From Entoloma clypeatum (Eukaryota > Basidiomycota > Agaricomycetes > Agaricales > Entolomataceae), in assembly GCA_963565915.1 (NCBI GenBank), contig OY751496.1, forward strand, positions 1,054,001 to 1,118,000: DNA of 64,000 bases, read 5' to 3'. The position numbers were made by a program, and so were the translations under genes. Shown piece after piece: positions 27,757 to 48,717 of the stretch. Within the stretch, counting starts at the first letter, position 1. Each line of letters opens with the position of its first letter. Below the pieces are notes generated by a model. That model searched no databases, was not told the origin of the DNA, and saw nothing but the letters and a program-made list of their open reading frames with translations.

Positions 27757-28968
27757 GCATCTCTTTGTGTTTACAGGATTCCTTCCCCCCTCCTTTGCCG
27801 TCACTCATGCTAGAAGTGACCCTCAACAACCTGTGAAGCTTTGAAGGTCAGCCCTTCGGACTCTGTGGAGAAGAAGGGTCGCGAACTTGAACGGCAAGTG
27901 TGTTGCCCCGATTTTTTGTTTGTTTGTTTGTTTGTTTGGCTAACACCTGACAGGTGGCTGTGACAGCTCTGCTGCTTAAGCTTGTCACCAAAGGTCTATG
28001 TACTTACCAGAGGTCTCCGCATTTGTTTCAACACAAGTTTATTTACTGATTAATTACTCACTCAGCTCGATGTCAACGGTGCCCATAGCAACAGCTTGAA
28101 ATGCTTCGTGAGTGTGTCGCTGAGTGGTTGCTCAGCAACTGAACATGATCTTACAGGGTGCCTTCATTGCCAGTTGTTAAGTAGGTGAAACGTCGGAGCT
28201 TCGTCGGAGTCTGTTGGAGGTCGGACGTAGGACTGAGACCAGAGCGGAACTCCAGAAATACGGAGGAATGACGAAGGGGAGGGACGTGGCTTCAGTGTAT
28301 GTGTTGCGCCGCCGTTTGTTGGATAAGGTGTCCCAATTTCAGGAGGTCAGAGGAGAGGTCGGAGGTGCAGAGGTCCTCGGAGAGATCTCGGTGAGAGACA
28401 TGTTGATGTGGAAGTGAGAGACACATTGATGTGGAAGTGGTCGGACGACGTCGGAGTTGTGACTCGGACACAGTACTGAGCTCGTCGAAGGGTAACGATG
28501 GAGGAAGAGCAGTAGATGAGGATGTCGTCGGCGTATTGTACCACGGCGAGGATCTCTGGCATGAACAGGGAGTAGGAGTGAACTTTGTTGATATTCGAAC
28601 TGAGGAACTACAGGTATGGTACGAGCTTAAATACCTAAATGTGATTACTTTACGGAGATGGTCGGAGTAGGTCCGGAGTTGTGGCGTAAGTTGCCAGCGA
28701 CTGTAACAAACATCGGAGATGTCGGTCAACGGACCATGCAAAAAAGGTGATGCATAAGTAAACGGGAATATGAATATGAAATGCATAAAGGCATGGAGTT
28801 ATGAATATGAAATGCACAATGGCAACGTGCAGAGATGAGGAGGTAACGGATGTCCGGAATGTTGGAGGACGATCAGAGTGGATCAGAGATTCAGAGACGG
28901 ATATAACACCAGTTACCCAGCTCTGCTTCCTGCAAATCATTCATGAGTGTGCGGTGTTGAGGGAGCGG
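27757..28968. other. no gene seen; microsatellite and CGGAGG-rich DNA
   Basis: A (TTTG)n microsatellite lies near 27915-27938. The stretch 28190-28720 is rich in GTCGGAG/GTCGGACG words resembling 4680-4860, probably remnants of one repeat family. No supported frame. Confidence 0.5.
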
Positions 28969-30249
28969 TGAAACGAAGGAAGTGAGTCTGGGGATGAGCG
29001 CGAGCGATATCTCTATCACACACACAAACACCAAACACAACAATGAAGACTGAACAAGTCTCGCGATGTGTACTTCTCAATCGATATAGTTCGGGGTGAT
29101 GAGTGGGATCACTCAGGATGCGACTCTTCCAAACAACAATTGAATAACTCGTTTAGCGATGGCTCGATAGGTCTCGAACAAGACTTAGAGATAGTTCTCA
29201 ATAGATAATGAACCGAGGTTTGTGATTTCCGGACCAACAAGACTTCGCGAACACGATCTCAACTGAATACGAACACGACAATGACCAATACGACCGATAG
29301 ATAACACAATTTGATGATTGACAAGTTCTCGAACACACAAAACACAATTGCGACTGACTTCCGATGCAAACCAAACGATCTCGAGGCTTCAATGATACTC
29401 GCGAACGACGACAGATGCACAAGACAAATGCTATCAATTCTGGGGCACAATCTAACCTAACCTATCTACCATGAAACTACGAGATTTTATACATGAGCAG
29501 CAATAAATATAGAAAAAGGTTGCATGTGGTATCGATAAATGGTATCCAGTCAAGTGACCTTTGCTAGAGTCGTTTCGATGCACCCATGTGGTAGACAACG
29601 CCACAGGTACGCCCCTTTTTCATATCCAAACCTCTGCCACACTGGAGAGGCCACTATTTCAATATCTTGGTTTTGCGATGTACCCGGGACGATGCCGATT
29701 AGTTACCATGAGGTATCAGCTGCATCAATTAAGGGTCGCCTTGATAAGCCACCCATCAGATTCGGTCCCTATCAAAGTTCACCATAAGGTCACATTGATC
29801 GCGACGTATCAAACCCGATCTCGGTCTGTATCATCCGATGTCATTTCGATATTCCTGATATGGACGATTTGGACGTGGAGCACGGCGCACGTTGACCAAA
29901 CCTCTCGCGAGAATGTCTCCAGTCAAGCCCTGATGTATGGTAGACAGTGCTAGTGTCATCGATAACTCCAATATAACCCATCTCCTTGTTTCACGCTTCG
30001 TCGCGAGAGGCACTTGATAGTCTTTTCTATCTCGCGAGATGATCCCATAGCTCTCGAGTATCATAGCTAAGCCCATAGTGGTGACCAGCGCTATGTCCTA
30101 CATTGCCAGGGTCGCTGGTCTCTCTCTCTAACGTCGCCACTAAGTCCTCAGAATTGGAGCTCATCTAGGACTCTCTATATCCCTTAGAGATAGTGTGAAA
30201 GGGTGCAAAACGCGCAGATTTTAGGCCTAGACACATCGCGGCCTTATCA
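28969..30249 (-). repeat. 3' LTR of the outer Ty3 element
   Basis: 1281 bp. It differs from 48718-49998 at about seven positions, nearly all C/T or G/A within CpG. It contains six TCGCGA palindromes. Short open frames inside both LTRs (for example 29561-29953) are identical by descent, not genes. Confidence 0.93.
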
Positions 30250-30262
30250 TCTCCCCCACACT
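30250..30262 (-). promoter_or_regulatory. polypurine tract of the outer Ty3 element
   Basis: On the minus strand GTGTGGGGGAGA directly precedes the left LTR (TGATAAGG...). It fixes the orientation and the LTR start. Confidence 0.7.
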
Positions 30263-30608
30263 AAATCCTGACTGTCCCAGTCAATTCTATCTAACGACAG
30301 CGATATGACCAGTCCACTCTAGCACCGCTTTCCATATATTCGAGTTCCACCCCAAAACATGTTCTCGCAAGACGGCCCCACTTGACACGCCGCACTGTGG
30401 ACACACAAAGTCCGCACTCGGCCCCCACTGGCCTCATGTTTGCCTATACCAAGTAACATCAAAGGTTTGCCGTTCTCGCGACCTAACTCCACGCTGATGG
30501 ATTTTGACAGATAACTTCCTCCGCAGTAGCCTCGCGAGACTTCCAATTCCCATAAAGGCTGGGGCAGTCTGCCTCATTCCCCAGTTCTCACTTTTCCTCT
30601 CGTTCAAC

Positions 30609-32230
30609 ATGACCACGTCTCCGAACGAGCTCTACACTCGCCTTTCTAAATTCGAGGTCGAACTCAATATCCTCACCGATCTCAACCGACTCCACAAGTC
30701 CGGAGAAGCACGGATTCGGGAAATCTTATCAGAACTTCACAATACACTGGTAAGTGATGCTCGCGAGACCCCGTTTCCTACTCAAACATTTCTTCTTTCA
30801 GGTCGCGGCTGCAGGTTGTGTGGATGACTACGCCGAGTGGCTCTTAAACACCATCGCGTACAACTTATACCGCTCCGGCTACACGATGGACCGCCGCTGG
30901 TGGAAATGGTGGCCCGACCTTCATGGGCAAACCCTCCAAGACCTCCCCGAGGTGAGTCGTTTGCTTATTTGTTTTGCTAATTTCCACATTACATTTATGC
31001 AGGATCGCCTACTGGAAGAGGACGAGGCCGTCCCCGTTCCCGAACCGTCCATCTCTAGCAGGAAACGACCCGCAAAGCTCATCGCGAAAGGCGTGGAGCA
31101 CATGACGGCCAGTCCAACTTCACCCAACATCGAGGACAAGAACAAGTCGACCTCTCGCGCTGCACGATCTAAGCCTGTGACCCATGCTAGCGGTAAGCTT
31201 GCGGCTCCCCATTCGCCTCCCAGTCAGGGAGCTCTCAAGGTGAACTTCCTGATCATTTCTTTTACTTCTTACTAAATTTCCTTCCAGAAACGTCGCTCCG
31301 ATATCGGTTGTCAAGCTTCGCAAGCAGACAGCGAGGACGACGACATCGAGGTGGTCGATGCGCACACCCCCGCCAGACCTCAACCCGTCGCTAAAAAGCC
31401 CCGTGTCGTAACAGCGCCCGCGAGGCCCCCTCCTCAACCCGAACTGAAACCCGCCACGGTCGCGAAAGAACCGCAGGTCGACGTGAAAGAAGGTACTGCC
31501 CTCAAGGCAGATGAGTTGCGACAACTCCGTGTTGCGTTGCCCATTGTGGTACGTTTTCTTTCTTCCTGACTCATTCTATAGTTAACTATGTCTTTTCTTA
31601 GCCCAGACTTCCCTGCCTCGTTTGTGCTGGTGGACCAAGTGCGGCTCGCTGCCGTTTCCAAGGTTGGGGCAAGAAGTGCTCCAACTGCCAGAGCGGTAGC
31701 CGGGTAGGGTGCTCTTTTGAGGTGAGTGGTGAACGTGCGGAACTCCTCGCGACCATGGCCCACGCCTTCGGTCAATCGAGCATGGCTGGTGCGTTCTACC
31801 ATCTGCCCTCTTTCTAGCCGCTGACAATTTATTTCCAGCCATCCGCGAGACTCTTGTCGACATCCAGGCCTCGACTGCTCTCCACTTCCACCTCTCGGAA
31901 GCCTTGTCGGCCATCGCCGCTCGTCGCGAGCAGTCCATTACCCACTTCCTTCACCAGCTGGCTCAGCTGTATCATCGCGAGGGCGACTTTCCTCAGGGCC
32001 TGGTAGCTGATGAGGGGGCTCGCCAGGAGCTCTTCGAAGTCTTTGGCCTCGCTCGATTCGACCCTCCCGCTGGTCAACAGTCCTCCCGCGAGAATCCCAT
32101 CTTTGTCAAGAAGGTTTCGCCTGTCCATGAATCAGACTCGGCTTCTGACGAGGACTCCCCTGTGGAGGAAGAGGCTGATGAAGTCGCGAAGGATCTGTTC
32201 ATTCAGGGGTTGTCTCGCGATGTCGCCTAG
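30609..32230 (+). CDS. accessory gene A: spliced six-cysteine (Zn2Cys6-like) protein
   Basis: Six exons with clean GT/AG introns of 48-53 bp: 30609-30749, 30802-30951, 31003-31239, 31288-31548, 31602-31788, 31839-32230; 456 codons without a stop. N-terminal helix-rich part (LSKFEVELNILTDLNRLHKS), a Trp-rich stretch (DRRWWKWWPDLHG), a Pro/Lys-rich basic linker, then six cysteines C268, C271, C280, C289, C292, C300, i.e. C-x2-C-x8-C-x8-C-x2-C-x7-C with GWGKKCSNCQSGS. The spacing is close to fungal Zn2Cys6 DNA-binding domains except x8 instead of x6. A helical part and an acidic tail (SDSASDEDSPVEEEADE) follow. It sits antisense to pol inside the LTR element and is intact while pol is broken. 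DNA binding is inferred. Confidence 0.75.
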
Positions 32231-32927
32231 GTACTGCGGGCCTTCTTTTTTTATTATTTATATTTGCACATGTCGCGGGCTATACGCCCTTATATTTTCT
32301 CTGTATACACTCGCTGCGGGCTTACGCGCAAATATATTGCTTTTCTTCGTTCTTTGATTAAGTCCATTAAGGGCCTCCTGTTCAGAACTACAGTATTTCT
32401 AAGTCTATCGCGAAGACGTTGGACGAAGTCTTGTTTTACTTTGATCGTTATGCTGTTTGGTACTCAGGGGTTCGGTATATCTATTTGACGGTGATTATGT
32501 CTTTCTGATATCTCCTTCCGAGATTCCGCTCTTTCATGTTCTGTTTAATTTATGGCAATTTGAGGTTCGCAATTGTACTGGAACAGGCTCACGACCCCCC
32601 ACTCCCCCACACTAAAGAATACAACTCTCCGAGTTGGACATCGCTCTATTCCGTGAAGGCAAGACTAGCATCGCGAAGGTACCCCTGTCGACTATCACAA
32701 GGACTGACTATCCCCTCGTAGAGGGAACCGCCGTGCCTAACCACGCAATCCCGGGCGCCACTACCATCCGGTATAGCACGGCCTCAAAAAAAAACTTTTG
32801 TTACTAAGTCGCCAGGGAAGCTATAAAAGCCCGCGACCACTCGAAGAGTCAACTCTACCCTCACCCTAGCACAAATCAACACCGCTAGACAAACTTGCCC
32901 TCGGGTCACACGCCGCCTCTAAAAGAG
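32231..32927 (+). promoter_or_regulatory. spacer between accessory genes A and B, with TATA box
   Basis: Holds the end of gene A's transcript and gene B's promoter. A TATA box (GCTATAAAAGCC, about 32819-32830) lies roughly 100 bp before gene B's ATG. Two TCGCGA palindromes are present (near 32409 and 32671). No extra gene seen. Confidence 0.5.
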
Positions 32928-34289
32928 ATGTCTAACGAAGACGAAACCCAGGCCGTGAAAAAGGTCTTAGCCTCGCTCATCGGTTCATTCCCGGACGATC
33001 CTCAGGCACCCCCCAAGAAACTGCCAACCTGCTCCGAAGCATACCTCATCTGTCGGTACGCGTATGACGACCTCAAAGTACGTCGCGACAGCGCACCGAA
33101 CCTTGTTTGACCATTCCAACTATTCCGTCAGCCTCTAAATCTCCGTCATGCACATATTTCCAATGAGTACCTCAAGGACGCACAACTCGCGGACCATGTT
33201 TTCGTAGCTAGGAACGGCCTACAGGCGTTCCATGACAAGAACAAGTCTTGGAGACTCCCGCCCATGTTCTTTACCCTCAAGGACATGGTCGCGTACATAT
33301 GATACCTGCGTCAAGGACCTACAGCCACTGAGGAGACCGTGCCTCCACCTGCAAGTGATCCTCCAGCCAACAGCGAGAAACCCAAAGTGAGTCGACGCGA
33401 GAGCTGGAGTCCGTCCCCCGCACTAATTGAATGGCTCGACCAGGTCAAGGTAACTGATCCTGACGCCGATCTCAATCTCGACGTCTCTAATATCCCAGAC
33501 GCAAACAGCCCGTCCGCCGCCGCGGAACCCGAACTAACCCAGTCGGGGACAGCGACGACAGCGACGGAAACGCCGAGTGCCCCGCCGAACCTCGTAAGCG
33601 ATCACGAGATGATGAATCTGATCATGAGGTCTGTCATTATTTGTATACTACCTTCCAACTTCCAATGGTATTGAAGCCGCTTCTCGCTACTGTGCAAGAA
33701 GATGGACGTCTACCCCGAGACCCTCCATCCCATTACTGCGGACGATGGGTCTGCCAAGAAGCCCATTACAGCTCCCTCGACGGAGAAATCATCGTCCGGC
33801 ACGGTACATCGACATACTGCCCCCGACAATCTCCGCTAATTTTCCCCATATCACAGAAAGGGTCTGGGTCGAAGGGCAAATCGGCCCCGGGTCCCAAATC
33901 CAACAAGAAACCGCGGCTGGAGACCAAAGAAGCCCCGTTCAAGGACACAGCGCCGGTGGGACCAGCACAAGTGGAGCAGCGAGGCAATTTCCACAAAGAA
34001 GGTACCGTACTAAACATATCCGCCTTCTTTATCCAAGCTAATATGTCACCCCGCAGCCGCTCGCTTCGCGATGGACAATCCTCTTGCAAACAAGATCCTC
34101 TCGGAGACTGGGTCGATCCTGGAGACGCCCTTGACACACACCGAGAAGTCCCTTTGTGACACCGAGGCCCTCGTCCGATCCCAATTTCTCACTACAATTT
34201 CTTCTCTTGATTACAACTTAAAGTATGCACAATACCTTAAGCAGCGACACAACCTTCTCCTCTCCGAATTGAAGGAGCAGTATGAGTAG
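32928..34289 (+). pseudogene. accessory gene B: spliced coiled-coil protein with premature TGA
   Basis: The ATG at 32928 opens MSNEDETQAVKKVLASLIGS. Exon 1 is 32928-33077 (donor GTACGT) and exon 2 starts at 33132 with PLNLRHAHISNEYLKD. An in-frame TGA at 33300-33302 (codon 107) interrupts LKDMVAYI, and the frame continues with YLRQGPTATEE and a Ser/Pro-rich part. After uncertain splicing near 33600-33700 come KGSGSKGKSAPG..KKPRLE and a last exon (about 34056-34289) with LDYNLKYAQYLKQRHNLLL and SELKEQYE, a likely coiled coil. CGA to TGA would explain the stop. The gene is convergent with pol (pol ends at 34488). Function unknown; its pairing with gene A suggests a shared role. Confidence 0.6.
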
Positions 34290-34487
34290 ACTGCCCTTCA
34301 CCTTTCCTGCCACAGCAAAAGCCACATGTCCCCTTGTAGAGGTTTTTACTGTATAGTCCGTAATACAGGTCTTCCTCTGCTGGCACATAGGCGTTCGATA
34401 TGATCGCTAAGTCATTCCAACATGGCCCTAGGCCTCGCGAGATCATACCAGTGGTGATTTTCTTCAAAGTAAGTCCCGCGAGCCCGG
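34290..34487. other. spacer between gene B and pol 3' ends
   Basis: About 200 bp between convergent reading frames, with one CTCGCGAG palindrome. Nothing else seen. Confidence 0.5.
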
Positions 34488-35249
34488 TCATTCATCATCC
34501 GAGCTGGAATCCTCGTCCGAGACTGCCCCCGCGTCATCCACGGTAGCCTCACGAGGCATATCCTCAAACCTGTCATTCTTATCTAAGTCCAGCCCCGTTC
34601 CGTCAAACCACAGGTCCTCACCGCTGTCCTTGGCAGCCCTGGTCGAATTTTTCAATCCTTCCAATGTCACTTTTGTAATATCGATCAAGTCTAACACCGC
34701 TTTAGGGACTGCAATGGCACGTCTCGCATGGTAGGGAACGAGCCTAAATGCTGCAACCTTCTCATGCCATACCGACCCATCCAGTTCCGCGATGATGTGT
34801 GCTCCACCTTTATTCCTCGCGACGACCACCATAGGACCGAAGTACCTGGGCTTCATTTTCTTGTCGAGACTATTTTCAACCGCTGTATTGCGGACTAACA
34901 CTAGATCTCTCTCTCTAAAGTCATAATCTCTGATTTTATGCCGGTGCTCTTGCTCATAACGAAGTACCGCCGTCATTTTGGCACGCGTAACCCGCTTACG
35001 CATCTCATCGACGTGCACTTTGTGCTTCGCGAGCGCACGAGCCCTAAATCCGATCAGGTCCGCCGTTGACAGCGGCCCATCTGGAAGTTTCACTAGCCAC
35101 GTCGCCTCAACAATATCTAGGGGAAGGATGGGATGCGCCCCTGTACACACAAAATATGGCGAGCATCCCAAACCCTTCCGAATTGTGATCCTATCTGCCC
35201 ACATCATATGGTGGAAGAACCAGAACCACTTGCTTATATCACCGCCTGT
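34488..35249 (-). pseudogene. outer Ty3 integrase, C-terminal part
   Basis: The minus strand from the CCTGT junction continues the integrase frame of 42237-43096: KWFWFFHHMMWADRITIRKG, GCSPYFVCTGAHPILPLDI, then a basic region, FRERDLVLVRNTA and RYFGPMVVVARNKGGAHII, an SH3-like C-terminal domain, and an acidic end SDEDSSSDDE. The stop is at 34488. No chromodomain is visible. It is separated from the rest by the inner element but is itself open. Confidence 0.85.
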
Positions 35250-35806
35250 TGTTACACTTTTTCACCCTTTTCCTACGCACCCTCACACGACCCTTCAACC
35301 CTTGATTCCCCATCACACCCCGTTTCACTTAACTCCGACGACCCTGGGACATGTGTCCCCTCTATCAGCGCTATGACTCATACTGACTCGGACTATTCCC
35401 CTTTTAGATACATTTTCACTCGTTATCTCTGACTCACGGCCTCGCGGCCTTATCTCTGACTCTTATGCCACAACCCCTGGAAACATCTATCTAACCAATG
35501 GCTTATTTAGCTCCTGCGCAGCACCTACTTATTTATAGCTATAGGATAACATATATAAGACCTGTAACCTTAGAGTAGAGGTCTTCAGCTTGACCTAGGC
35601 AAACAATGCTTACTTGTCTACTACTTCGAACGCTCTCAAACTAAGTGCCTTGCGAGGACTTAGCTCTGCTTGACCCGAACCGAGTCGTCCTTCTGAGGAA
35701 CTCGCTGATTGACCAAGTCGACCTATTGAGGGACTTGTTGTGGAACCAGTTCGAACCCACGTGATCCGATCTGTTGAACTTGTTGTTGTAGGCTATCGCC
35801 GTAACA
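35250..35806 (+). repeat. 5' LTR of the inner Ty3 element
   Basis: 557 bp. It differs from the 3' LTR at three sites (C/T, T/C and G/A, each in a CpG). TATATAAG at 35552-35559 predicts a transcript start near 35580-35586. Confidence 0.95.
35552..35559 (+). promoter_or_regulatory. TATA box of the inner Ty3 LTR
   Basis: TATATAAG, about 27-33 bp before TCAGCTTGACCT (35585-35596), the segment complementary to the primer site. Confidence 0.65.
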
Positions 35807-35808
35807 AA

Positions 35809-35820
35809 AGGTCAAGCTGA
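35809..35820 (+). promoter_or_regulatory. self-complementary primer site (Tf1-like)
   Basis: AGGTCAAGCTGA begins two bases after the LTR and is the exact 12-nt complement of TCAGCTTGACCT at 35585-35596, where the transcript should start. Tf1/sushi-type elements are known to prime with the folded-back 5' end of their own RNA. Confidence 0.65.
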
Positions 35821-36100
35821 TCAACGTCGTCAACCCACCGCGGTTTTAGACGCAAAGATTCTTCCCTGACGATCCACCTTTGGAGTCCCGTCCAACTCAG
35901 AAGACGAACAGGAGTTCGTTGACGCACCTATCACACCACGACCACCGCCGACACCGTACAGAAGAGTAACCTCCTCTTTCGTACCAGTCAACCCCACATC
36001 ACCCTCTTACCTCTCTCCGAGACGAAACCCACCGCCGCCAGCTGCTGCTGTTGCTGCACCCAGACCAACCCCAGACACCCCAAAGACTCCACTTGTAGAA

Positions 36101-37003
36101 ATGACTTCTCAAGTAAGGACCCCAGAAAAAGAAATCAAGATCAGCCCGCCGGCGATCTTCAATGGAGATAGAAGGAAACTATCTGAATTTTTGTTTGACG
36201 CGAACCTGTATCTGGAGATGAACGATGACATTTACAACTCCGACAAGAAAAAAATCCTGTTCACTGTCTCATACATGAAAGGAGGAACTGCCGGACCCTG
36301 GAAGGAGTCCTGGCACAGAGATATCAGCACCACCGGAGTATCCATGTACCCGAAATACGCGGAGTTCATCGAGAAACTGAGGAAATCGTTTTCCCCAGCC
36401 AACAAAGAAGGAGACGCGTTAACCATGATGAAAACACAAAGAATGGAAGGCATGACTGCCGATGAATATGTTGAAAAGTTCAAGTTATGGGCTGCAGAGA
36501 GTCTGATCAAAGACGATCGATCTCTCAGAGACTACTTCATGGAGGCGTTGCCACACGCGCTCCGAGACAAGATCTTGGGCCTTGATAAGGTCCCAGGAAC
36601 AATGGAAGAGTGGTACACCACAGCGTCCAGACTGGACAACCAGTGGAGAAGGGCCAAGGCAGTGGCTCAAAGGCTCAGACCCGATGGGGGAAAGAAAAAG
36701 TTCAAAGTGAACTATAACCCCGCACCCCGAAATGCGCATTTCGCCCCAGACCCTAATGCCATGGACATTGACCGGCTGACTGCCGAAGAAAGAGATGACC
36801 ACTTCAAGAAAGGGTTATGCTTCGTCTGCCACCAGGCAGGACATCGTGCTGATGCACACAAAGGAGGAAAAACCCCGGTTGCAAACAATACGTTCAAAAA
36901 AGCATCCGATGCATATGCCCATATCCGAGGCATTTTCAAGGACTTACCAAATGAGGAACAAGACGCCTTGATCTCCGAAATGGAGAAACAGGGTTTTCAA
37001 TAA
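36101..37003 (+). CDS. inner Ty3 gag
   Basis: 300 codons. A Ty3 gag: ISPPAIFNGDRRKLSEFLFD, AGPWKESWHRDIS, TADEYVEKFKLWAAE and EEWYTTASRLDNQWR. The zinc knuckle near residue 243 reads CFVCHQAGHRADAH, with His in place of the last Cys. The frame is open upstream to about 35887 with a Pro-rich, ATG-less stretch that may be translated in a longer form. It ends with TAA 15 bp before the pol ATG, in a different frame, so pol needs separate initiation or frameshifting. Confidence 0.88.
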   Translation: MTSQVRTPEKEIKISPPAIFNGDRRKLSEFLFDANLYLEMNDDIYNSDKKKILFTVSYMKGGTAGPWKESWHRDISTTGVSMYPKYAEFIEKLRKSFSPANKEGDALTMMKTQRMEGMTADEYVEKFKLWAAESLIKDDRSLRDYFMEALPHALRDKILGLDKVPGTMEEWYTTASRLDNQWRRAKAVAQRLRPDGGKKKFKVNYNPAPRNAHFAPDPNAMDIDRLTAEERDDHFKKGLCFVCHQAGHRADAHKGGKTPVANNTFKKASDAYAHIRGIFKDLPNEEQDALISEMEKQGFQ

Positions 37004-37017
37004 AGCGGCCTGTACCG

Positions 37018-40000
37018 ATGTCAGCCCCCGCTCAGTTTTCAATCTCCCTATCACCTGTAATTGTAGCCGACATGAATGACAAATCTTTTTCGATCCCCAT
37101 TTCAATGTCAGGAGAAGGAGAAAGCATCGATGAAAGACTAAAGATAAACGCCCTGATAGACTCAGGAGCAGGAGGAACCTTCTTGGATCAGAAGTTCGCC
37201 ACAGCTAACCGAATGGAGCTTATCCCATTACTAAAGCCCATTCGTGTGTTCAATGTGGACGGAACAAAGAACAAAGAAGGAACGATCACCCATTGTACAT
37301 GGAAGAAAATCTGGATCGATGACAAAGAACTCGACGTCAGATTCTTGGTAACTGGACTTGGAAAGGAAACCACCATTTTGGGGTTACCCTGGTTAAAACA
37401 ATACAACCCGAAGATTGATTGGGAAAGAGGAACCTTGGATATTGAAACTATCAGGTTCAAGAAGACTCTGGCAGGGGTCATGAGGAAGAAATTTGATGAG
37501 CTCTTAGCATCAAAAGACAAGAAACCCATTGCAATTGCAGCATGGATGAAAGAAAAACCCAAACAAAGGATCTTCGCAACAGTAGAAGAAATTGATGATG
37601 AAGAGACCCTTAAACCGAAAAAGGAGGCTCTACCGGCAAATGGACCTATCTTGAAAAGGATAGATAAAGAATCAGACGATGACCTGGACCTATTCAGGAC
37701 ATATGTCACAACGGATGAACCCATTGAGGATATTTGGATCCAAGCCAAAACCTCAATCTCCCAGAAACTGACACACAACACGGACACCACGGACAAACCA
37801 AAAAAAGAACTACCAGAACGATACGATCAGTATCAGAAGGTGTTTGAGAAAGCGGCATCTGAGAGGTTACCGGAACACAAAACATGGGACCACGCAATTG
37901 ACTTAAAACCGGACTTCATCCTGAAAGACTGCAAGGTTTATCCTTTGTCACCAGAAGAACAAACTAAATTGGACGAATTCCTTGATGAGAACCTTCGAAA
38001 GGGGTACATCAGACCCTCGAAATCACCAATGGCATCACCCTTTTTCTTCGTGGCTAAAAAGGACTCGGATAAACTCAGACCCTGTCAGGACTATCGGCGA
38101 TTGAACGAGGGAACAGTGAAGAACGCATACCCATTACCCCTGGTCGGAGATTTACTGGACAAACTGAAAGGAGCAAAGGTCTTTACCAAACTGGACATGC
38201 GTTGGGGATACAACAACGTACGGATCAAACCTGGCGATGAATGGAAGGCTGCATTCAAAACCAATCGAGGATTGTACGAACCCTTGGTTGCCTTCTTTGG
38301 GCTGGCAGGCATGCCACCCACATTTCAGGCAATGATGAACGAAATCTTCAAAGAAGAACTCGAAGAGGGATGGTTGCTCATTTATTTGGACGACATCTTC
38401 ATCTTCTCGGTCAATGACAAAATCGACACCGAACGGACGCTCCGCGTACTAAGAAAAATGATAGAGAATGACCTCTATCTCAACCTGGAAAAATGCGAAT
38501 TTGGAGTCAGGCAGTGCGAATACCTCGGACTGATTATCAAAGAAAACGAAATCGCAATGGACCCCGTTAAGTTATCGGGGATAGCAAAATGGCCAGAACC
38601 CATGACTGTCAAGCAAGTCAGATCTTTCCTCGGATTTGGGAACTTTTACCGAAGGTTTATTGGACACTACTCGGACACTGCCAAACCCCTGAATGATCTA
38701 ACAAAGAAGGATCAGGAGTGGGAATGGAGCGAAGACTGCCAGACGGCATTTGACACATTAAAGGACAAATTCGCGGAATCACCGGTATTGTTAATGCCAA
38801 ACACTGACAAACCGTTCATCATAGAATCTGATGCATCAAAATGGGTGACAGGAGCAGTACTGCGCCAACAAGATGTGAATGGAGACTGGCACCCCTGCGG
38901 ATATATATCACACTCGTTCTCTGCGCCAGAACGGAACTATGAGATCTATGATCGGGAACTCTTGGGAATTATCCGATCACTGGAAACCTGGAGGCACTAC
39001 CTCCTTGGGTCACCGTTTCCAACAGTAGTTCTGTCAGATCACAAGAACTTGACGTATTACCGGGAACCCCAGAAATTGAACAGACGACAAGCACGGTGGA
39101 GATTGTATCTCTCCGAGTTTGAACTCAAACTAGTGCATACCCCAGGATCGAAGATGATCCAATCTGACGCCTTGTCAAGGCGACCGGACCATATACCCGA
39201 AGAGGACACTGATAACGAAGACGTTATTGTCTTGCCAAATGACATTTTTGTCAAAACAGTGGACCTTGAGCTACAAGGAGATATTCTAAAAGCAACCGAA
39301 AACGATGAGCTCTTCTCAAAAGCCATCACTGCCCTAAAAGAATCGGGAACGCCACCGATTAAATCCCATTTATCAGAATGGAGAACAGAAGACGGAATAT
39401 TATTCTTCCGTGACAGATGTTACGTACCACCAGATGAAACTCTGCGCCGGGAAATAACGAAACGATACCATGATTCCCTACCAAGCGGACATCCGGGACA
39501 TCTAAAAACCCTGGAACTGGTCAGAAGAAACTATTGGTGGCCAGGAATGTATGTGTTTGTCAAAAATTATGTTGGAGGATGTGCAACCTGCCAACAAATG
39601 AAAGTCAACACACACCCCACAAACCCTGGATTAATGCCGATCAAAGCGCAAAAAGACGCTAGACCATTCTCTCAAACGATGATCGACTTCATTACAGACT
39701 TACCCAAGAGCAACGGGTTTGACAGTATCATGGTCGTAGTAGACCATGGTTCTACGAAGGGGGTAATTTCCATCCCTTGCACGAAAACCACCGACGCGAC
39801 CCTTACTGCCAAGCTTTATTTGGATCACGTATACCGAAGGTTCGGACTCCCAGACTCTATTCTGTCTGACAGAGGGCCACAGTTCGCCTCTCAGGTCTTC
39901 AGAGAACTAGGACGACTCCTAGGGATCAAACTAATGATGAGCACGGCTTATCACCCTCAGACTGATGGAGAAACGGAAAGAGCAAATCAGGAACTTGAGA

Positions 40001-40713
40001 TCTACTTCCGGATGTTCTGTTCGAACAATCCTGAAACATGGCACGATCATAATTCAACAATGGAGTTCTGTCATAATCAAAGAACTCATTCCACGACGAA
40101 ACGATCCCCGTTCTATCTGATGATGGGATACGAACCAAGAGACATACCATTGGCATTTGACAAAACAAATGTGCCAAGCGTAGAAGAACGGCTCAAAGAG
40201 CTGAAACAAGCAAGAGATGAAGCGCTGGCAGCGCACGAACTAGCCCGTCAGATGATGACCAAAAGAACAACACGAGGTTTCACTCCATTTGGAAAAGGAG
40301 AACAGGTATGGCTAGAAGGGAAGAACCTCCGAATCGGATACCCTTCCAGAAAACTGGCACCCAAAAGAGAAGGACCCTTCACCATTTCCGAGGTGCTTGG
40401 GCCCATGACGTACAAACTGAAACTTCCAGAACAATGGAAGATCCACCCCGTTTTCCACGCCTCCTTGTTAACACCTTATCGGGAAAATGACACACACGGA
40501 CCGAACTTCCACAACCCACCTCCTGATCTGATTGAAGGAGAACACGAGTACGAAGTAGAAGCAATCCTCACCCACAAGCGACAGGGCAGAGGGTACAAAT
40601 ATTTGGTCAAGTGGATGGGATACCCATCGAGCGATAACACGTGGGAACCCGAATCCAACTTAAAAAGAGCCCAAGAAACGCTGGGATACTACAAACAGAC
40701 CCACCACCTTTGA
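37018..40713 (+). CDS. inner Ty3 pol with chromodomain
   Basis: 1231 codons, uninterrupted. Protease ALIDSGAGGTF (D48-S49-G50). RT with LRPCQDYRRLNEGT, FTKLDMRWGYNNVRI and YLDDIFIFS (D458, D459). RNase H with FIIESDASKWVTGAVLRQQ and YEIYDRELLGI. Integrase zinc region GHPGHLKTLELVRRNYWWPG..CATCQQMK; catalytic MIDFITD (D890), LSDRGPQF (D951) and TDGETERANQ (E987), with the classical D-35-E spacing. A chromodomain closes the protein at about residues 1178-1227 (YEVEAILTHKRQGRGYKYLV, KWMGYPSSDNTWEPESNL). In chromoviruses this domain directs integration to marked chromatin. All catalytic residues are intact. Confidence 0.95.
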   Translation: MSAPAQFSISLSPVIVADMNDKSFSIPISMSGEGESIDERLKINALIDSGAGGTFLDQKFATANRMELIPLLKPIRVFNVDGTKNKEGTITHCTWKKIWIDDKELDVRFLVTGLGKETTILGLPWLKQYNPKIDWERGTLDIETIRFKKTLAGVMRKKFDELLASKDKKPIAIAAWMKEKPKQRIFATVEEIDDEETLKPKKEALPANGPILKRIDKESDDDLDLFRTYVTTDEPIEDIWIQAKTSISQKLTHNTDTTDKPKKELPERYDQYQKVFEKAASERLPEHKTWDHAIDLKPDFILKDCKVYPLSPEEQTKLDEFLDENLRKGYIRPSKSPMASPFFFVAKKDSDKLRPCQDYRRLNEGTVKNAYPLPLVGDLLDKLKGAKVFTKLDMRWGYNNVRIKPGDEWKAAFKTNRGLYEPLVAFFGLAGMPPTFQAMMNEIFKEELEEGWLLIYLDDIFIFSVNDKIDTERTLRVLRKMIENDLYLNLEKCEFGVRQCEYLGLIIKENEIAMDPVKLSGIAKWPEPMTVKQVRSFLGFGNFYRRFIGHYSDTAKPLNDLTKKDQEWEWSEDCQTAFDTLKDKFAESPVLLMPNTDKPFIIESDASKWVTGAVLRQQDVNGDWHPCGYISHSFSAPERNYEIYDRELLGIIRSLETWRHYLLGSPFPTVVLSDHKNLTYYREPQKLNRRQARWRLYLSEFELKLVHTPGSKMIQSDALSRRPDHIPEEDTDNEDVIVLPNDIFVKTVDLELQGDILKATENDELFSKAITALKESGTPPIKSHLSEWRTEDGILFFRDRCYVPPDETLRREITKRYHDSLPSGHPGHLKTLELVRRNYWWPGMYVFVKNYVGGCATCQQMKVNTHPTNPGLMPIKAQKDARPFSQTMIDFITDLPKSNGFDSIMVVVDHGSTKGVISIPCTKTTDATLTAKLYLDHVYRRFGLPDSILSDRGPQFASQVFRELGRLLGIKLMMSTAYHPQTDGETERANQELEIYFRMFCSNNPETWHDHNSTMEFCHNQRTHSTTKRSPFYLMMGYEPRDIPLAFDKTNVPSVEERLKELKQARDEALAAHELARQMMTKRTTRGFTPFGKGEQVWLEGKNLRIGYPSRKLAPKREGPFTISEVLGPMTYKLKLPEQWKIHPVFHASLLTPYRENDTHGPNFHNPPPDLIEGEHEYEVEAILTHKRQGRGYKYLVKWMGYPSSDNTWEPESNLKRAQETLGYYKQTHHL

Positions 40714-40738
40714 ACCCAACCACCCACATCCTCTCATC

Positions 40739-41638
40739 ATGACCACCGTTTTCGATACCGCCACCAAGGAACTTCACCGACACCGCCTCTTTAGGCTCCT
40801 GACCGAACCAGAACACAATGACAGAGTGCTGCGGCACATTGACGATGAGACTGACCAATTCTTGGTCAACACCTTGTTCGGGCTAATCACCCTCCGCCAG
40901 TTCCACTACGACACCACCGCCAATATTGCCCGACTCATTGAAGGACACATTGACACGCTCTTGGACCGAGGTGTCTACCAACAGTTTGCAAGGCTGTTCC
41001 ATAACCGCACAAACACTCCTGATGTTGCCCTCCTCGACCCACCCATAGAGAACCCTATTTTGACCACTCCCCTCCCTGATCTTGCCACTACCCCTGAACC
41101 GACCCCCATCCCCGACCCAATTCCCCTTGTTGTCAGAAACCCTGACACCCAAATCACTCCGTCCTCTCCCGAATCCATGTCGCCCTTGACCAGCGACCGA
41201 AGCCTTTCCGACGTCAAGACCGACGTCAAGGGAAAGAAGAAATCCTATGGAGTTGTTAAACGCTCCAGAAGAAAAACCACACGCACCATCATGTCTATTC
41301 CATTAGGGCATGGATCATCATCCCAAACTCCCATCGATCTCACCAACGAACCCGATGACCTTGGCTATGAGGTTGACACGCATGGACGAGCCCACTCCCC
41401 AAGCAGACCTTGGCGTCGTCCTGCTGGATGGCCACATATAGACAAAGGGCGCAAATGCGGCCTTTGTGCTAGGGCAGATGGACACATTGAGTGTCAATGC
41501 GGATACTATGTATGTCAGAAGTGTTGGAAGAAGGCACCCGGACACTACGATTACGAGTGCTTGGGCCCGGGTTATGCAGCGCTGGAAGATGACCAGTACG
41601 AGTTTGACGAAGACGCCATACACAACATGGCAACTTGA
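40739..41638 (+). CDS. inner Ty3 ORF3: cysteine-cluster protein
   Basis: 299 codons in the position where some elements carry env. It starts 25 bp after pol's stop and ends 41 bp before the 3' LTR. Not recognised. N-terminal helical part (HRLFRLLTEPEHNDRVLRHI), Pro/Thr-rich middle, basic KKKSYGVVKRSRRKTTR (a possible nuclear signal), then from residue 240 CGLCARADGHIECQCG, YYVCQKCWKKAPGHYDYEC, a RING/zinc-ribbon-like array of about eight Cys/His, and an acidic end. No membrane segment or signal peptide, so it is not an envelope. It is intact, as expected if it helps the element. Confidence 0.8.
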   Translation: MTTVFDTATKELHRHRLFRLLTEPEHNDRVLRHIDDETDQFLVNTLFGLITLRQFHYDTTANIARLIEGHIDTLLDRGVYQQFARLFHNRTNTPDVALLDPPIENPILTTPLPDLATTPEPTPIPDPIPLVVRNPDTQITPSSPESMSPLTSDRSLSDVKTDVKGKKKSYGVVKRSRRKTTRTIMSIPLGHGSSSQTPIDLTNEPDDLGYEVDTHGRAHSPSRPWRRPAGWPHIDKGRKCGLCARADGHIECQCGYYVCQKCWKKAPGHYDYECLGPGYAALEDDQYEFDEDAIHNMAT

Positions 41639-41667
41639 AAACATTGAAGCCGATGACTTCAAGCATA

Positions 41668-41679
41668 GAAGGGGGGTAA
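41668..41679 (+). promoter_or_regulatory. polypurine tract of the inner Ty3 element
   Basis: AGAAGGGGGGTAA precedes the 3' LTR (TGTTACAC). Confidence 0.7.
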
Positions 41680-42236
41680 TGTTACACTTTTTCACCCTTT
41701 TCCTACGCACCCTCACACGACCCTTCAACCCTTGATTCCCCATCACACCCCGTTTCACTTAACTCCGACGACCCTGGGACATGTGTCCCCTCTATCAGCG
41801 CTATGACTCATACTGACTCGGACTATTCCCCTTTTAGATACATTTTCACTCGTTATCTCTGACTCATGGCCTCGCGGCCTTATCTCTGACTCTTATGCCA
41901 CAACCCCTGGAAACATCTATCTAACCAATGGCTTATTTAGCTCCTGCGCAGCACCTACTTATTTATAGCTATAGGATAACATATATAAGACCTGTAACCT
42001 TAGAGTAGAGGTCTTCAGCTTGACCTAGGCAAACAACGCTTACTTGTCTACTACTTCGAACGCTCTCAAACTAAGTGCCTTGCGAGGACTTAGCTCTGCT
42101 TGACCCGAACCGAGTCGTCCTTCTGAGGAACTCGCTGATTGACCAAGTCGACCTATTGAGGGACTTGTTGTGGAACCAGTTCGAACCCACGTGATCCGAT
42201 CTGTTGAACTTGTTGTTGTAGGCTATCACCGTAACA
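41680..42236 (+). repeat. 3' LTR of the inner Ty3 element
   Basis: 557 bp, three differences from the 5' copy, followed by the target duplication CCTGT. Confidence 0.95.
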
Positions 42237-43804
42237 CCTGTGGCCTTAAACAAAGCCTGACGAACATCCCAATGCGGCCTCTTGATCCGTCCATTTGCTC
42301 TAGAATTATAAGCCAATATCATAATCCCCTTAATTCCATACTTCTGTTCTATCCAGGCCAAAGCTTTCTTGAATGGCCCCGCGTTATCGGTCACAATCAT
42401 TACCATACCGCCCCACCTACATAGTATGTCTTCGAAGAGCCAGTGCCCAACAGTCCGACCCGTTTCTTGCCTTAGCGGCCGCCCTTCCATCCATGTCGAT
42501 AGTGCACAGTGGCCGTGAACAATGTATTTACAACCATTCGACGCCGGCGTCATGTGTAGCGTATCGGCATGCAGGACCTGAAACAGACCCGGCGTATGGG
42601 TTACCGTAGGAGGAATGCAAACCAATGTCTTCTGTCTCAGCTGACATATATGACAAGTCTGGACATATAGGCAAACGTCGCGCTCATATTCTGGCCACCA
42701 GAATCTTTGCGCAATAAGCTCCTTTGTTGCATAGAAGCCGTGGTGCGCAAGGCTATCATGGGATGCCCTCATCATGTACATGCAATGCCCCTTCTCGACC
42801 ACTAGTTTGTGCTTTCCCTCGCTACCTCTTCTATAGAGCTGGCCATCATCAGCGACAAAGAATTGTCTCGCCCGCTGCGCGAACTGTTTATACTGTCGGT
42901 CATTCAGGCCGTTTGGTCTCACAAAAGGGTCCTCGAGCCAAATTTTGATGTCAGGAATGCGGTCATCCTGCAACTTCATGGTTATCGTGCGATGATCCTC
43001 ATCATAAGGTTCTCGCATCGATTCATCCCATTTCAAAGAGTCGTCGGGCAACACCGGTTCCCCCATGAATTGCGAGAGCAGTCCAGCCTTACACACTCAC
43101 CCAAGATATAATCGTTCAATATTTGATCTCTCGCGAGCGTCAGCAAGCTCTCCCCGGAAGTCTTCAGCCGACGTAGCCCAAAGATAACCACTGCGTGTGT
43201 CTATCTTTGTTTTAAACTCGTCGAACTCTAACGGGTCATTCTTTTCCGCATTAGGGATACCATTTTCCTTATTGGGATACTCGTACCGTGGCGGTCCATC
43301 TGGTTCATCCACCCAGTCCTCCTCGATATGGTAGGCTTCATCCCCCGGTTGCGCTTCTCGCCTCGATAGACCATCGGGTGCGAAGGTCTTGCCTGGCACA
43401 TGCCTTAGTGTGAAGTGGAACATCAAAATGTAATCAATCCACCGATTTATAGCAGTGTTCGGTCCAAGACCAGGATTATTGAGCATCCCCTTGATATACT
43501 TCGCATCAGTCTCTATAACCAGGTTCCGACAGCCCAAGAGCCAAAACTTCGCCTCCTTCAATGCGCGAAATAAACCATACAATTCTCGCTTTGGTTGCGA
43601 ATATCTCGCCTCACGCTCGTTTAGTGTTATTGATGCGAACTTCGCATATGTCCTCTTCTTAGAATCACCCTCCTCCTCTTGACAGATATAGAATCCAACC
43701 GCCCGCCATGAGGAGTCTACGCAAAGGACCACCGCACCTCCACCATGATAATCTATTGGCTTGATTGTGGAGGATGCCGCTAAAGCATCCTTTATGTCTT
43801 GCAT
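42237..43804 (-). pseudogene. outer Ty3 RNase H and integrase N-terminal part
   Basis: The minus strand frame opens near 43804 with RNase H (VVLCVDSSWRAVGFYICQEE, YSQPKRELYGLFRAL, VIETDAKYIKGML). A TGA at 43097-43099 interrupts it. In the same frame integrase follows: HHGFYATKELIAQRFWWPEY, CHICQLRQ, catalytic LHADTL and VTDNAGPF. Where the third catalytic residue belongs, ANGRIKRPHWDVRQAL has Lys instead of Glu. The frame runs into the inner element at 42236 and resumes at 35249. The stop and the Lys codon are both explained by CpG transitions (CGA to TGA, CGAG to CAAG). Confidence 0.85.
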
Positions 43805-45252
43805 GGCCTTCTCCTGTTCAGATCCCCAGCAAAGAGTTCACGACTTCGCGTCAACTTGACTAGAGGTTCCGCCTTCTTCGCGAAGTCTCTAATAAAGTTT
43901 CGACAAGTGCCAGCCGTTCCAAGGAACGACCGCACATCATGTATATCTTTGCAAGGTCCCCAGCGGCTTATAACTCCGAACCTATCTGTCTCGGGTCTCC
44001 GTCCTTCGTACGTGCAACGATGGCCAACTACCACTATCTCGCTCGCGCATACTAGCGACTTATACCCAGAGAACGTTCCTCCACTATACCGCATTCTCTG
44101 TAACACTCTATTCACATTCTGTACATGTTCCCATACAAATCGCCTAATGCCTGGATTTTCTTCTATAGTTTCGTATCTGCCATCAGGCAACTCGTATCGC
44201 GTAGATGAGCCGCGAACCGCCACATCGTCGATGTAGGGAATAGTAACATCTGGTATTTCGTCCTGCAATATATGTGTAACATCATCGTGAAAGATCGGTA
44301 CCAAATTTGTCCAACCCATTGGTAAAGTGACCAATCTTTGAGCACCGAATGGCATCTGAAATGTAGTCAAGTCGCGAGACTGGACCGCTAACTTGCGCCC
44401 GTCATATCCCACATAGAGATCGAACATTCCACCACAAGCACGTCCCGCGAAATGGTTGGCTAATTCCTCTGTTGCCGGGGGAAGGCCCGAATGTGCTATA
44501 GTGACTTGGTTCAACAGTTCTAGACTGTGTACAATACGGAGACTCTTGCCATCCTTTTTCAATACACAGAACCACCGGGATCTGTATGAGGAATTCGACG
44601 GTTCGTACACGCCCACGGCCATCTTCGTCCTTATTATCTTACACACTTCATCATGTATCCCAGGCGGAATAGGAATATTTCTTAGTACCCACGGAGTGTG
44701 CGGTACCACGGGTATCTGTACCAGAGGAAAGAAATCCTCGCGAAAGCTACCACACTCCGAATCATCCCATGCAAAAGCCTGATTCTGTTCACTCAATAAA
44801 TGATGTATTAGTTTCATTTCTTCTTTCCAGAGAAAATCATGGTCGTGTATACTGTCCATGTGCTCCATCCTTTCCTGGGTGTAGCAACCCTTGGGCGCAA
44901 ACCCCGGTGGTTTTGGGTTCAACTTTGGTAACTCCGCAAGGGGGTCCCCTTTTATCTCGCAAACTATGTGAAATGTCTTGGACAACTCTCCCAATACTGG
45001 TCGCACCTTCTTGTCGACAGGTTTATATTTCTTACCCGCTAGCACTTGTACAATCCCACCATGATATTGGTCTAATATTTCTTGTTCATCATCGCAAAGC
45101 CATTCTGAACGTTCCCTTGATTTTCCGTCCCAATATGCCCCTAAAAGGACCTGTGCATTCTCGTCCGCGACACTATCTCGCGACGCTTCGAGATACAGGT
45201 CTCTAATTTTGTCTCTCGTAAATTTTCCATTTTCCGCAATGCCATAAGCCAT
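43792..45252 (-). CDS. outer Ty3 reverse transcriptase region
   Basis: 486 codons on the minus strand. RT core: GVYEPSNSSYRSRWFCVLKK, SLRIVHSLELLNQVT, GMFDLYVGYDGRKLA, the catalytic VTIPYIDDVAVRGS and, in the connection region, VRSFLGTAGTCRNFIRDFAK. The frame differs from both flanking frames (protease upstream, RNase H downstream), so the polyprotein is split by frameshifts or by small introns I could not place. The N-terminal 150 residues are a less conserved linker. Confidence 0.8.
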   Translation of the reverse strand: MAYGIAENGKFTRDKIRDLYLEASRDSVADENAQVLLGAYWDGKSRERSEWLCDDEQEILDQYHGGIVQVLAGKKYKPVDKKVRPVLGELSKTFHIVCEIKGDPLAELPKLNPKPPGFAPKGCYTQERMEHMDSIHDHDFLWKEEMKLIHHLLSEQNQAFAWDDSECGSFREDFFPLVQIPVVPHTPWVLRNIPIPPGIHDEVCKIIRTKMAVGVYEPSNSSYRSRWFCVLKKDGKSLRIVHSLELLNQVTIAHSGLPPATEELANHFAGRACGGMFDLYVGYDGRKLAVQSRDLTTFQMPFGAQRLVTLPMGWTNLVPIFHDDVTHILQDEIPDVTIPYIDDVAVRGSSTRYELPDGRYETIEENPGIRRFVWEHVQNVNRVLQRMRYSGGTFSGYKSLVCASEIVVVGHRCTYEGRRPETDRFGVISRWGPCKDIHDVRSFLGTAGTCRNFIRDFAKKAEPLVKLTRSRELFAGDLNRRRPCKT

Positions 45253-45293
45253 TATATATGGTCTCTCAATATCGCTAGAATCAATGTTTATAA

Positions 45294-46620: not shown

Positions 46621-46653
46621 CTACGAATTGACTGATGTCCTGCATCGCTTTAG

Positions 46654-48429: not shown

Positions 48430-48717
48430 GCGCTCGCGAGCCGTTTCAATAGATTGTGAATTTGTTGCTTTTGAAGATGACGCTTTTAGAGACGTTGTCT
48501 TCGGTTTATGACTACTCGCGAGACCTCTTTTATGAACTGGAGGCTTCCACGAGTTTGCTTTAACGTGTTTGCTGCTAGATGCAACAGTGGGGTTGCTTGT
48601 AGAGGACAGGGTTATCTCTCAAGCGAGAACTATAACTAATTCCTTGAGAGGAACTGTATCGAGCCGATACTGAGTAAATTTGTTATTTTAGAACCACCCC
48701 TCATGGTGGGCTCTAGA
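48430..48717 (-). other. outer Ty3 leader between 5' LTR and gag
   Basis: Minus-strand leader. Directly after the LTR it reads TCTAGAGCCCACCATGAGG, which contains a short hairpin (CCACC..GGTGG). I recognise neither a tRNA 3'-end site nor a self-complementary site, so the primer is unknown. Confidence 0.5.

Follow-up and report, generated by a model that had tools for sequence, protein, structure and literature searches.

Two antisense intron-bearing genes inside a fungal Ty3 retrotransposon: candidate accessory genes and a dispersed TCGCGA palindrome

The window, a stretch of 64,000 nucleotides from Entoloma clypeatum, holds a Ty3 (gypsy) LTR element in which two intron-bearing genes are oriented against the reading direction of pol. 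This arrangement raises the question of how introns persist in DNA that is copied through RNA, and whether such genes serve the element or are merely carried by it.

The outer element and its antisense genes

The outer element belongs to family F1 and has two LTRs, a TSD and the order protease, reverse transcriptase (RT), RNase H and integrase, as in Ty3 (gypsy) elements (Table 1). It was initially annotated as 21 kb long; the minus-strand Ty3 element is real, while its size resolves into 14.0 kb (14,043 bp after removal of the nested insertion) plus a nested Ty3 of 7.0 kb. The polypurine tract AGTGTGGGGGAGA is also found at the 3' LTR edge of the sister family F2. The outer RT gave no Pfam match at E 1 and is recognised by motif only. 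Pfam searches likewise returned no match for the gag frame and no chromodomain in the C-terminal part of the outer integrase. The damage to pol was described correctly, with broken reading frames and a lysine replacing the catalytic glutamate of integrase. This glutamate is kept in all 14 other copies covering the site, and its loss is private to this copy among them.

Table 1. Positions of features in the window, with strand and remarks.
Feature	Position	Strand	Remark
TSD, 3' side	28965..28968	.	CCGC in sense orientation
Outer Ty3 element, family F1	28969..49998	-	LTR pair 99.45% identical across 1281 bp; TG..CA ends
F1 3' LTR	28969..30249	-	1281 bp
Polypurine tract	30250..30262	-	at 3' LTR edge
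TATA-like box of gene A	30551..30557	+	CATAAAG; kept in 18/19 other copies covering the site
Gene A	30609..32230	+	exons 30609-30749, 30802-30951, 31003-31239, 31288-31548, 31602-31788, 31839-32230; ATG 30609, stop 32228-32230
Six-cysteine cluster	31614..31712	+	gene A, exon 5
Internal polypurine-tract-like sequence	32596..32613	-	second tract, between genes A and B; identical in 19/19 other copies covering the site
TATA box of gene B	32822..32828	+	kept in 17/17 other copies covering the site
Gene B	32928..34289	+	exons 32928-33077, 33132-33628, about 33677-33803, 33857-34001, 34057-34289; ATG 32928, stop 34289
Integrase, C-terminal part	34488..35249	-	outer element
Nested Ty3 with chromodomain	35250..42236	+	LTR 557 bp; splits outer integrase
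Integrase, N-terminal part	42239..43096	-	H2C2, DD; catalytic E to K in this copy
RNase H	43100..43837	-	
Reverse transcriptase	43795..45351	-	YIDD; frame shifted relative to RNase H in this copy
Protease region	45297..46343	-	weak gag-asp_proteas match below Pfam cut-off
gag	46657..48618	-	stop-to-stop frame
F1 5' LTR	48718..49998	-	1281 bp
TSD, 5' side	49999..50002	.	CCGC

As initially annotated, two plus-strand, intron-bearing genes lie antisense between integrase and the 3' LTR. Gene A is open over six exons and encodes 455 aa, with five introns of 48-53 nt in phases 0,0,0,0,1. Without splicing, its three frames contain 11, 14 and 16 stops. Intron 2 (51 nt) contains no stop and preserves the frame; its call depends on splice signals rather than on the frame. 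An automatic joint gene model recovered four of the five introns and left intron 2 as coding. The single-copy automatic model with a branch-point rule was applied to three copies; it yielded no model of gene A, and its gene B models differed. The TATA-like box and the ATG of gene A are located 302 bp and 360 bp inside the LTR edge, respectively, which argues against a transcript start in the 3' LTR.

For gene B, a five-exon model gives 383 aa in those copies where it is open. In the present copy, positions 33300-33302 form an in-frame stop that breaks the gene; 2 of 17 rows have a stop at this position. The borders of intron 2 are uncertain, and a good acceptor is lacking. The joint model proposed three gene B introns, not all of which were kept in the final model. 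Introns at relative positions 460-516, 523-581 and 585-634 were dropped, as frame 0 is constrained through them.

The six-cysteine motif of gene A had been likened to a Zn2Cys6 DNA-binding domain. Its spacing, C-x2-C-x8-C-x8-C-x2-C-x7-C, is as claimed, and its order C-x2-C ... C ... C-x2-C ... C is that of fungal Zn2Cys6 domains. The domain identity itself is not supported: the Pfam model PF00172 (Zn2Cys6) gave no match to the gene A protein. The Zn2Cys6 pattern is C-x2-C-x6-C-x(5,12)-C-x2-C-x(6,8)-C; the second gap in gene A is 8 instead of 6, whereas the other gaps fit. Of 21 copies, 20 retain every cysteine of the cluster; the remaining one (L024) has a gap at the sixth. Pfam searches assigned no family to gene A at E 1, to exon 5 alone at E 10 or to the gene B protein, and the gene A protein had no PDB match at E 1.

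Intron persistence, selection and origin

Twenty further copies were obtained from the same genome, fetched only through gene A matches. At these loci, A is adjoined by an LTR in 18 cases (reversed in L030), with B next to it in 17 and the integrase C-terminus in 16. The claim that introns survive copying is borne out by all 105 gene A introns in the 21 copies, 104 of them GT-AG and one GC-AG. The accompanying explanation, that antisense orientation carries introns through reverse transcription, is consistent with established splicing rules, since the genomic RNA has the introns reversed.

Constraint was calculated as dN/dS per exon in the three plus-strand frames, with the gene A exon frames set in advance by the earlier gene model. 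In 6/6 gene A exons, dN/dS is lower in the predicted frame than in either of the other plus-strand frames, and exon 5 is the most strongly constrained (dN/dS 0.10). Between subfamilies, dN/dS is 0.36 for A and 0.24 for B, compared with 0.24-0.44 for parts of pol; within the close group, gene A reaches 0.62. The size of the constraint on gene A is uncertain, as its dN amounts to 0.72 of intron divergence, introns diverge less than synonymous sites (0.087 vs 0.174) and mutation is dominated by CpG. For A and B together, N/S is 1.12 in variants common to several copies versus 1.86 in singletons (p 0.003). Given the frame-specific constraint and the persisting introns, A and B look spliced, translated and selected like pol; they are almost certainly real genes of the element.

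No homologues of A and B were found at E 0.001 among 5.8 billion proteins searched. The search scored 8000 candidates in one run and 3494 in another, limited to 0.55-1.75 of the query length; exon-sized fragments are short, which makes this a weak negative. In a control search, a piece of F2 RT-RNase H found 1663 relatives among 7419 candidates (best 120 listed), indicating that the pol lineage is common. A scan of IMG/VR with the RT gave no relative. A possible origin of A and B by tandem duplication, prompted by the second polypurine tract, found no sequence support (A_N vs B_N, z -1.4).

The sister family F2 and the TCGCGA palindrome

F2 integrase is about 64% identical to that of F1, and F2 carries two antisense intron-bearing genes, X and Y, in the same slot as A and B. 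Hand-spliced gene X has intron phases 0,0,0,0,1 as in gene A, with no detectable sequence similarity to it; one acceptor leads to 334 aa and an alternative to a stop after 181 aa. The automatic model of X ended after exon 1, and that of Y differed between the two F2 copies, which leaves the 3' end of this gene uncertain. X and Y are paralogues (z 7.9), and a profile comparison among A, B, X and Y gave no match. Most of X is missing in three of eight F2 copies. A diverged X-Y pair is located at C11:4405605-4407564, with no integrase nearby among the matches listed. Of the more distant families, F3 (integrase 35-43%) is represented by a single fetched copy that continues into tandem repeats and a different element, and F4 (28-29%) by two copies 7.9 kb apart with scant room for antisense genes.

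The F1 element contains 45 occurrences of TCGCGA versus 4.4 expected, spaced about every 310 bp. Coding DNA accounts for 24, compared with 5.1 under synonymous shuffles (z 8.7); 15 other CpG palindromes stay within z 2 in this control. Over 20 loci, the motif occurs 386 times in 153,590 aligned element bases and 11 times in 44,430 other bases. It is near background in the flanks, absent from the nested Ty3, and not enriched in F2, which also lacks the six-cysteine cluster. Site conservation between subfamilies (34/37 vs 282/342 for other two-CpG 6-mers) does not differ significantly (p 0.17). Protection of TCGCGA CpGs from decay was discarded, as their loss of 18.6% differs little from the 22.0% of other CpGs. 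Close TCGCGA pairs of identical sequence turn up at several places, which suggests that the motif is also present in other repeats; genome-wide, close pairs are not enriched (62 vs 128 for a reversed control). F1-type LTRs with close TCGCGA pairs occur at C9:419316-424398 and C2:3275197-3286109, with no A, B or integrase among the matches listed.

Possible roles and related systems

A and B would each use a TATA promoter of their own for antisense transcription, and the host would splice the transcripts. The genomic RNA would run in the opposite direction, leaving their introns to be inherited intact through reverse transcription. Selection like that on pol suggests that their proteins serve the element, and F1 probably carries two antisense spliced accessory genes of its own, putatively acting in trans on element DNA. 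Basic stretches within acidic, low-complexity middle parts point to possible nuclear entry, and the chances are about even that both proteins are nuclear DNA-acting regulators. Through its cysteine cluster, A may contact DNA, perhaps at TCGCGA, and this contact could prevent silencing of element copies or tune their transcription. That A binds TCGCGA for anti-silencing is a tentative and rather unlikely proposal. Quite doubtful is the full scenario of a retrotransposon whose whole length, including coding DNA, was shaped by synonymous choices into a TCGCGA field for its own antisense, intron-bearing DNA-binding factor; copies would be recognised as self and spared CpG-methylation silencing. 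Such a system would be VANC-like, of independent origin in a fungal retroelement, and in the sister family both the protein and the motif would have been exchanged jointly.

TCGCGA might instead be read by a host factor, as a promoter or chromatin-opening site, or act as an RNA-level signal, while A and B do other work such as nuclear entry, integration targeting or motif-independent counter-silencing. This has a realistic chance, somewhat short of even. Identical TCGCGA pairs in apparent other repeats and the motif-free antisense genes of F2 fit such a reading, and CGCG motifs are BANP promoter and chromatin-opening sites in vertebrates, an analogous case. PMC6192621 describes methylation abolishing the promoter activity of the vertebrate element TCTCGCGAGA. 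The missing genome-wide enrichment of close pairs, the near-background flanks and the motif-free nested Ty3 speak against a host factor, and a host promoter site would be unexpected in coding DNA along the element. Repression of their own element by the A and B proteins, a copy-number control like that by HBZ and APH in HTLV, is unlikely: orientation and element end are as for hbz, and APH proteins of HTLV-3/4 suppress 5' LTR transcription (PMC10186651), but repression of an LTR does not call for a motif along the entire element.

Capture of A and B as antisense host genes or passengers without a role in the life cycle is improbable. Their host-like introns and TATA promoters would suit it, as would the X-Y pair on C11 and the F2 copies lacking most of X. 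Against it stand the presence of A and B in both F1 subfamilies under pol-like, frame-specific constraint, the F2 pair in the same slot, and the stronger constraint in shared variants than in singletons. It is very improbable that the region works as RNA, non-coding or dsRNA-forming, and dampens copy number with coding capacity secondary. Antisense transcripts do repress in Ty1. For HIV-1, PMC10186651 describes Ast as promoting silencing by way of PRC2; constraint here, however, tracks the coding frame exon by exon, shifting frame at introns, and is strongest in exon 5.

If A and B are accessory genes of F1, as favoured here, evolution across 21 copies indicates that protein genes with several introns can be retained by a retroelement when they lie antisense, and the presence of introns does not reliably mark a gene as belonging to the host. 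F1 would represent a fungal TE family with fast-evolving antisense accessory proteins and a family-specific dispersed DNA motif. Whether retrotransposons make anti-silencing factors, as VANDAL transposons do, becomes testable with one purified protein.

The initial annotation suggested that a retroelement with antisense regulators of its own would be a distinct system. Retand, Grande, Boty and HTLV already offer examples of antisense accessory genes, making F1 a variant. Retand TRP28, Grande gene23 and RIRE2 are plant antisense additional ORFs (aORFs) between pol and the 3' LTR (PMC11963269, PMC7264820). A and B share this aORF-3R position antisense to gag-pol, the orientation and a suspected nuclear or DNA-binding protein. 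As described there, plant aORFs are present in most copies, and Grande has its own promoter, as proposed for A and B. Pol-like conservation is also seen in the F1 copies, all of which were found through A. F1 differs in having two genes, five introns in A and a dispersed motif; Pfam searches gave no TRP28 (PF04195) in A or B, and the word "intron" is absent from the main text of both papers.

Boty of Botrytis cinerea, a fungal Ty3 element, has an extra antisense gene, brtn, in the same slot (Zhao 2011, as cited in PMC7264820 and PMC8365987); brtn is one gene, whereas F1 has two. The literature searched, which covered only a minority of subscription papers, showed no fungal LTR element with an antisense gene containing introns. 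HTLV-1 hbz, like other antisense retroviral genes, is antisense and spliced, and encodes a nuclear regulatory protein, a role that A and B may share. It is a bZIP gene starting in the 3' LTR, with splicing that mainly alters the N-terminus (PMC10186651). In F1, by contrast, the TATA boxes are internal to the element, the coding sequence is split by several introns, and Pfam searches gave no bZIP domain in A or B.

VANDALs are DNA transposons. In the VANDAL/VANC anti-silencing system of Arabidopsis, motif binding and methylation loss are demonstrated (PMC5735166, PMC10398659). There, motifs are arrayed in the same orientation, mainly in non-coding tandem repeats, unlike TCGCGA, which is a dispersed palindrome also present in coding DNA. 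Both systems combine an evolving TE-encoded accessory protein with a short motif that is abundant in a single TE family and scarce outside it, the F1 motif being absent as an enriched feature from F2, yet recurring as close pairs in some other repeats.

Structure of the outer element and its antisense genes

The outer Ty3 element, which represents the family F1, has LTRs with 99.45% identity (about seven differences), starts with TGATAAGG, ends with TTTCA and is flanked on either side by a CCGC duplication. Its length is 14,043 bp when the nested insertion is subtracted, and the pol order is protease, RT, RNase H, integrase. A TGG directly 3' of the 5' LTR, the expected place of the tRNA primer-binding site, is absent. 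The initial annotation described the pol of this copy as damaged, which is confirmed by shifted reading frames and a glutamate-to-lysine change in the integrase. The damage is private to the window copy, the change being found in 0 of 14 other copies covering the position. The nested Ty3 element carries, past pol, a stop-to-stop frame of 324 aa whose weak resemblance to a zinc knuckle falls below the cut-off. Elsewhere in the window, a long inverted repeat aligns with its reverse complement at 95% across 692 columns.

Positions of the features in the window
Feature	Position	Strand	Remark
Outer Ty3 element (F1)	28969-49998	-	window copy
Outer-element LTRs	28969-30249, 48718-49998	-	1281 bp each
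Polypurine tract, 3' LTR edge	30250-30262		
Gene A	30609-32230	+	antisense to pol
Second polypurine tract	32596-32613		between A and B
Gene B	32928-34289	+	antisense to pol
Nested Ty3 element	35250-42236	+	chromodomain, LTR 557 bp, inside outer integrase
Frame past nested pol	40664-41638	+	
Expected primer-binding site	48690-48717		
Long inverted repeat	25920-26607		

Genes A and B are located between the integrase and the 3' LTR. Once spliced at five GT-AG introns of 48-53 nt (phases 0,0,0,0,1), A encodes 455 aa. The A region has at least 47 matches in the 60-Mb genome (40 of 50 candidates scored). Besides the window copy, the analysis covers 20 of these 46 further sites, of which 19 are full-length and one almost so; the remaining 26 are partial. 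The initial annotation gave A six exons with short introns, and each of the 21 copies has all five introns, 104 of the 105 being GT-AG and the last GC-AG. No intron loss from A was found among these copies, as it should be if reverse transcription uses only minus-strand RNA that is unspliced. A is uninterrupted throughout in nine of the 21. The style of genes and introns points to a fungus as host.

LTR sequence adjoins A in 18 of 20 loci, with the LTR reversed in L030, while B lies beside A in 17 and the integrase C-terminus in 16. Among the copies covering them, TATA-like boxes are kept in 18 of 19 for A and 17 of 17 for B. The polypurine tract at the 3' LTR edge, AGTGTGGGGGAGA, has a near-repeat between A and B that is identical in all 19 other copies covering it. 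This invariance suggests that the second tract is functional, perhaps as a central polypurine tract. Two alike F1 copies, L029 and L030, share contig C10, where about 60 kb separates them and their orientations are opposite.

Coding constraint on A and B

Of the A copies, 15 form a close group, to which the window copy belongs, and six form a second one. For spliced A, dN/dS is 0.36 between the groups, 0.62 within the close group and 0.38 within the second. The predicted frame has the lowest dN/dS of the three plus-strand frames in six of six exons, and the constrained frame switches at the predicted intron positions. Exon 5, carrying six cysteines, has a dN/dS of 0.10. Mirror minus-strand frames can reach equally low values, as expected from shared third positions.

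B was scanned in 17 rows including the window, excluding L028, in which B is interrupted, and three loci without B. Coding stretches were found at 1-150, 205-701, 750-876, 930-1074 (other frame) and 1130-1362, with an overall dN/dS between groups of 0.24; constraint was not seen in part 373-459 of exon 2. The frames of exons 2 and 3 were picked with help of the same scan, so that A alone represents a prior prediction. In the resulting five-exon model, B is open in six of 17 rows. The pol parts have dN/dS values of 0.24-0.44.

N/S is 1.12 for variants common to several copies and 1.86 for singletons (p 0.003), as expected if selection works during spread and ends after insertion. One caution is that intron divergence (0.087) is below dS (0.174), with dN at 0.72 of the intron value. 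C-to-T and G-to-A changes dominate (579 of 845 singletons), a pattern resembling CpG-methylation decay that may raise dS artificially in CpG-rich exons. Wrong-frame controls carry the same mutation bias, yet remain separated from the predicted frames. Judged by their sequence evolution, A and B are shown to be antisense, intron-bearing coding genes under selection and carried by the element. In the cell, they would be expressed and spliced, and their proteins would act in trans in the nucleus.

A second gene pair in the sister family

The integrase search revealed at least eight copies of a sister family, F2, at 62-64% identity (136 of 1633 candidates scored) and, among the matches listed, further families at 35-43% and 28-29%. 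In loci L033 and L037, F2 measures 14.1 kb, with LTRs of 1201 bp that are 99.3% identical. Its 4.8-kb stretch from pol to the 3' LTR contains two antisense genes, X and Y. X was spliced by hand since the automatic model ended after exon 1; it encodes 334 aa and has five introns in the same phase pattern as A (0,0,0,0,1). X and Y are paralogous (z 7.9; 0 of 400 shuffles) and their first introns align in position, the 3' end of the Y model being unsure. A and B align neither with X and Y nor with each other, and the six-cysteine cluster is absent from X. The F2 stretches read have a polypurine tract at the LTR edge and no internal second one.

X is frameshifted in L034, a second F2 copy. Matches to both X and Y are present in four of the eight F2 copies. 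The start of X abuts Y directly in three (C1:290866, C5:56009 and C15:3454331), as if by a single deletion common to them, and C6:5156928 has no X or Y matches. X can thus be provided in trans or dispensed with. A diverged pair at C11:4405605-4407564 (X-type matches 38-54%, Y-type 37-47%), with no integrase nearby among the matches listed, could represent a relic, the source genes or a domesticated pair. Since F2 has its own antisense intron-bearing pair, the slot with such genes seems to predate the F1-F2 split. The proteins within it seem either to diverge very fast or to have been replaced.

The TCGCGA motif and comparable known systems

Among the 6-mers of F1, TCGCGA shows the strongest enrichment, about tenfold across the outer element, with 45 sites against 4.4 expected from dinucleotides. 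The nested element has 0 (0.9 expected) and 43 kb of flanks have 9 (6.8 expected). The sites are spread over LTR, introns, intergenic DNA and every coding frame. When protein sequence and codon usage are kept constant, 24 sites stand in coding DNA where 5.1 would be expected (z 8.7), and none of 15 other CpG palindromes goes beyond z 2. This excess is located in A, gag, RT, protease, RNase H and the integrase C-terminus; B has hardly any (1 against 0.65) and the main integrase part has no site. The 20 other loci contain 386 sites per 153,590 aligned element bases and 11 per 44,430 other bases, the second-group copies being poorer (1.0-2.6 per kb). F2 has five sites over 12.9 kb and lacks a comparable word.

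Close TCGCGA pairs number 62 genome-wide among the matches listed, against 128 for the reversed control. Identical pairs recur at several places among these matches; some therefore seem to sit in other repeats. F1-type LTR pairs at C9:419316-424398 and C2:3275197-3286109 enclose close pairs, with no A, B or integrase among the matches listed, and are possibly non-autonomous derivatives.

There is a likeness to VANC, the Arabidopsis VANDAL-encoded anti-silencing protein with its family-specific motif: in F1, a cysteine-cluster protein, A, would be paired with an F1-specific palindrome (PMC5735166, PMC10398659). Neighbouring bases lengthen the dyad, with a preceding C at 22 of the 45 sites and a following G at 19, as a dimer site would show. 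Between groups, 34 of 37 TCGCGA sites are retained, as are 282 of 342 other two-CpG 6-mers (p 0.17), which counts against selection on individual sites. It is at least as likely that a host factor reads TCGCGA; the methyl-sensitive vertebrate promoter element TCTCGCGAGA, as described in PMC6192621, shows no more than that a palindrome of this kind can read methylation. VANC-like binding by A is putative, and VANC motifs are described as tandem and mainly non-coding, unlike those of F1.

Antisense ORFs between pol and the 3' LTR are reported to characterise Retand and to occur in Grande and RIRE2 (PMC11963269, PMC7264820), and one is known from Boty (Zhao 2011, as cited in PMC7264820). HTLV has antisense genes with splicing (PMC10186651). 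Three features did not come up in the literature searched: multi-intron coding, the occurrence of a gene pair in two families that have diverged, and the dispersed motif.
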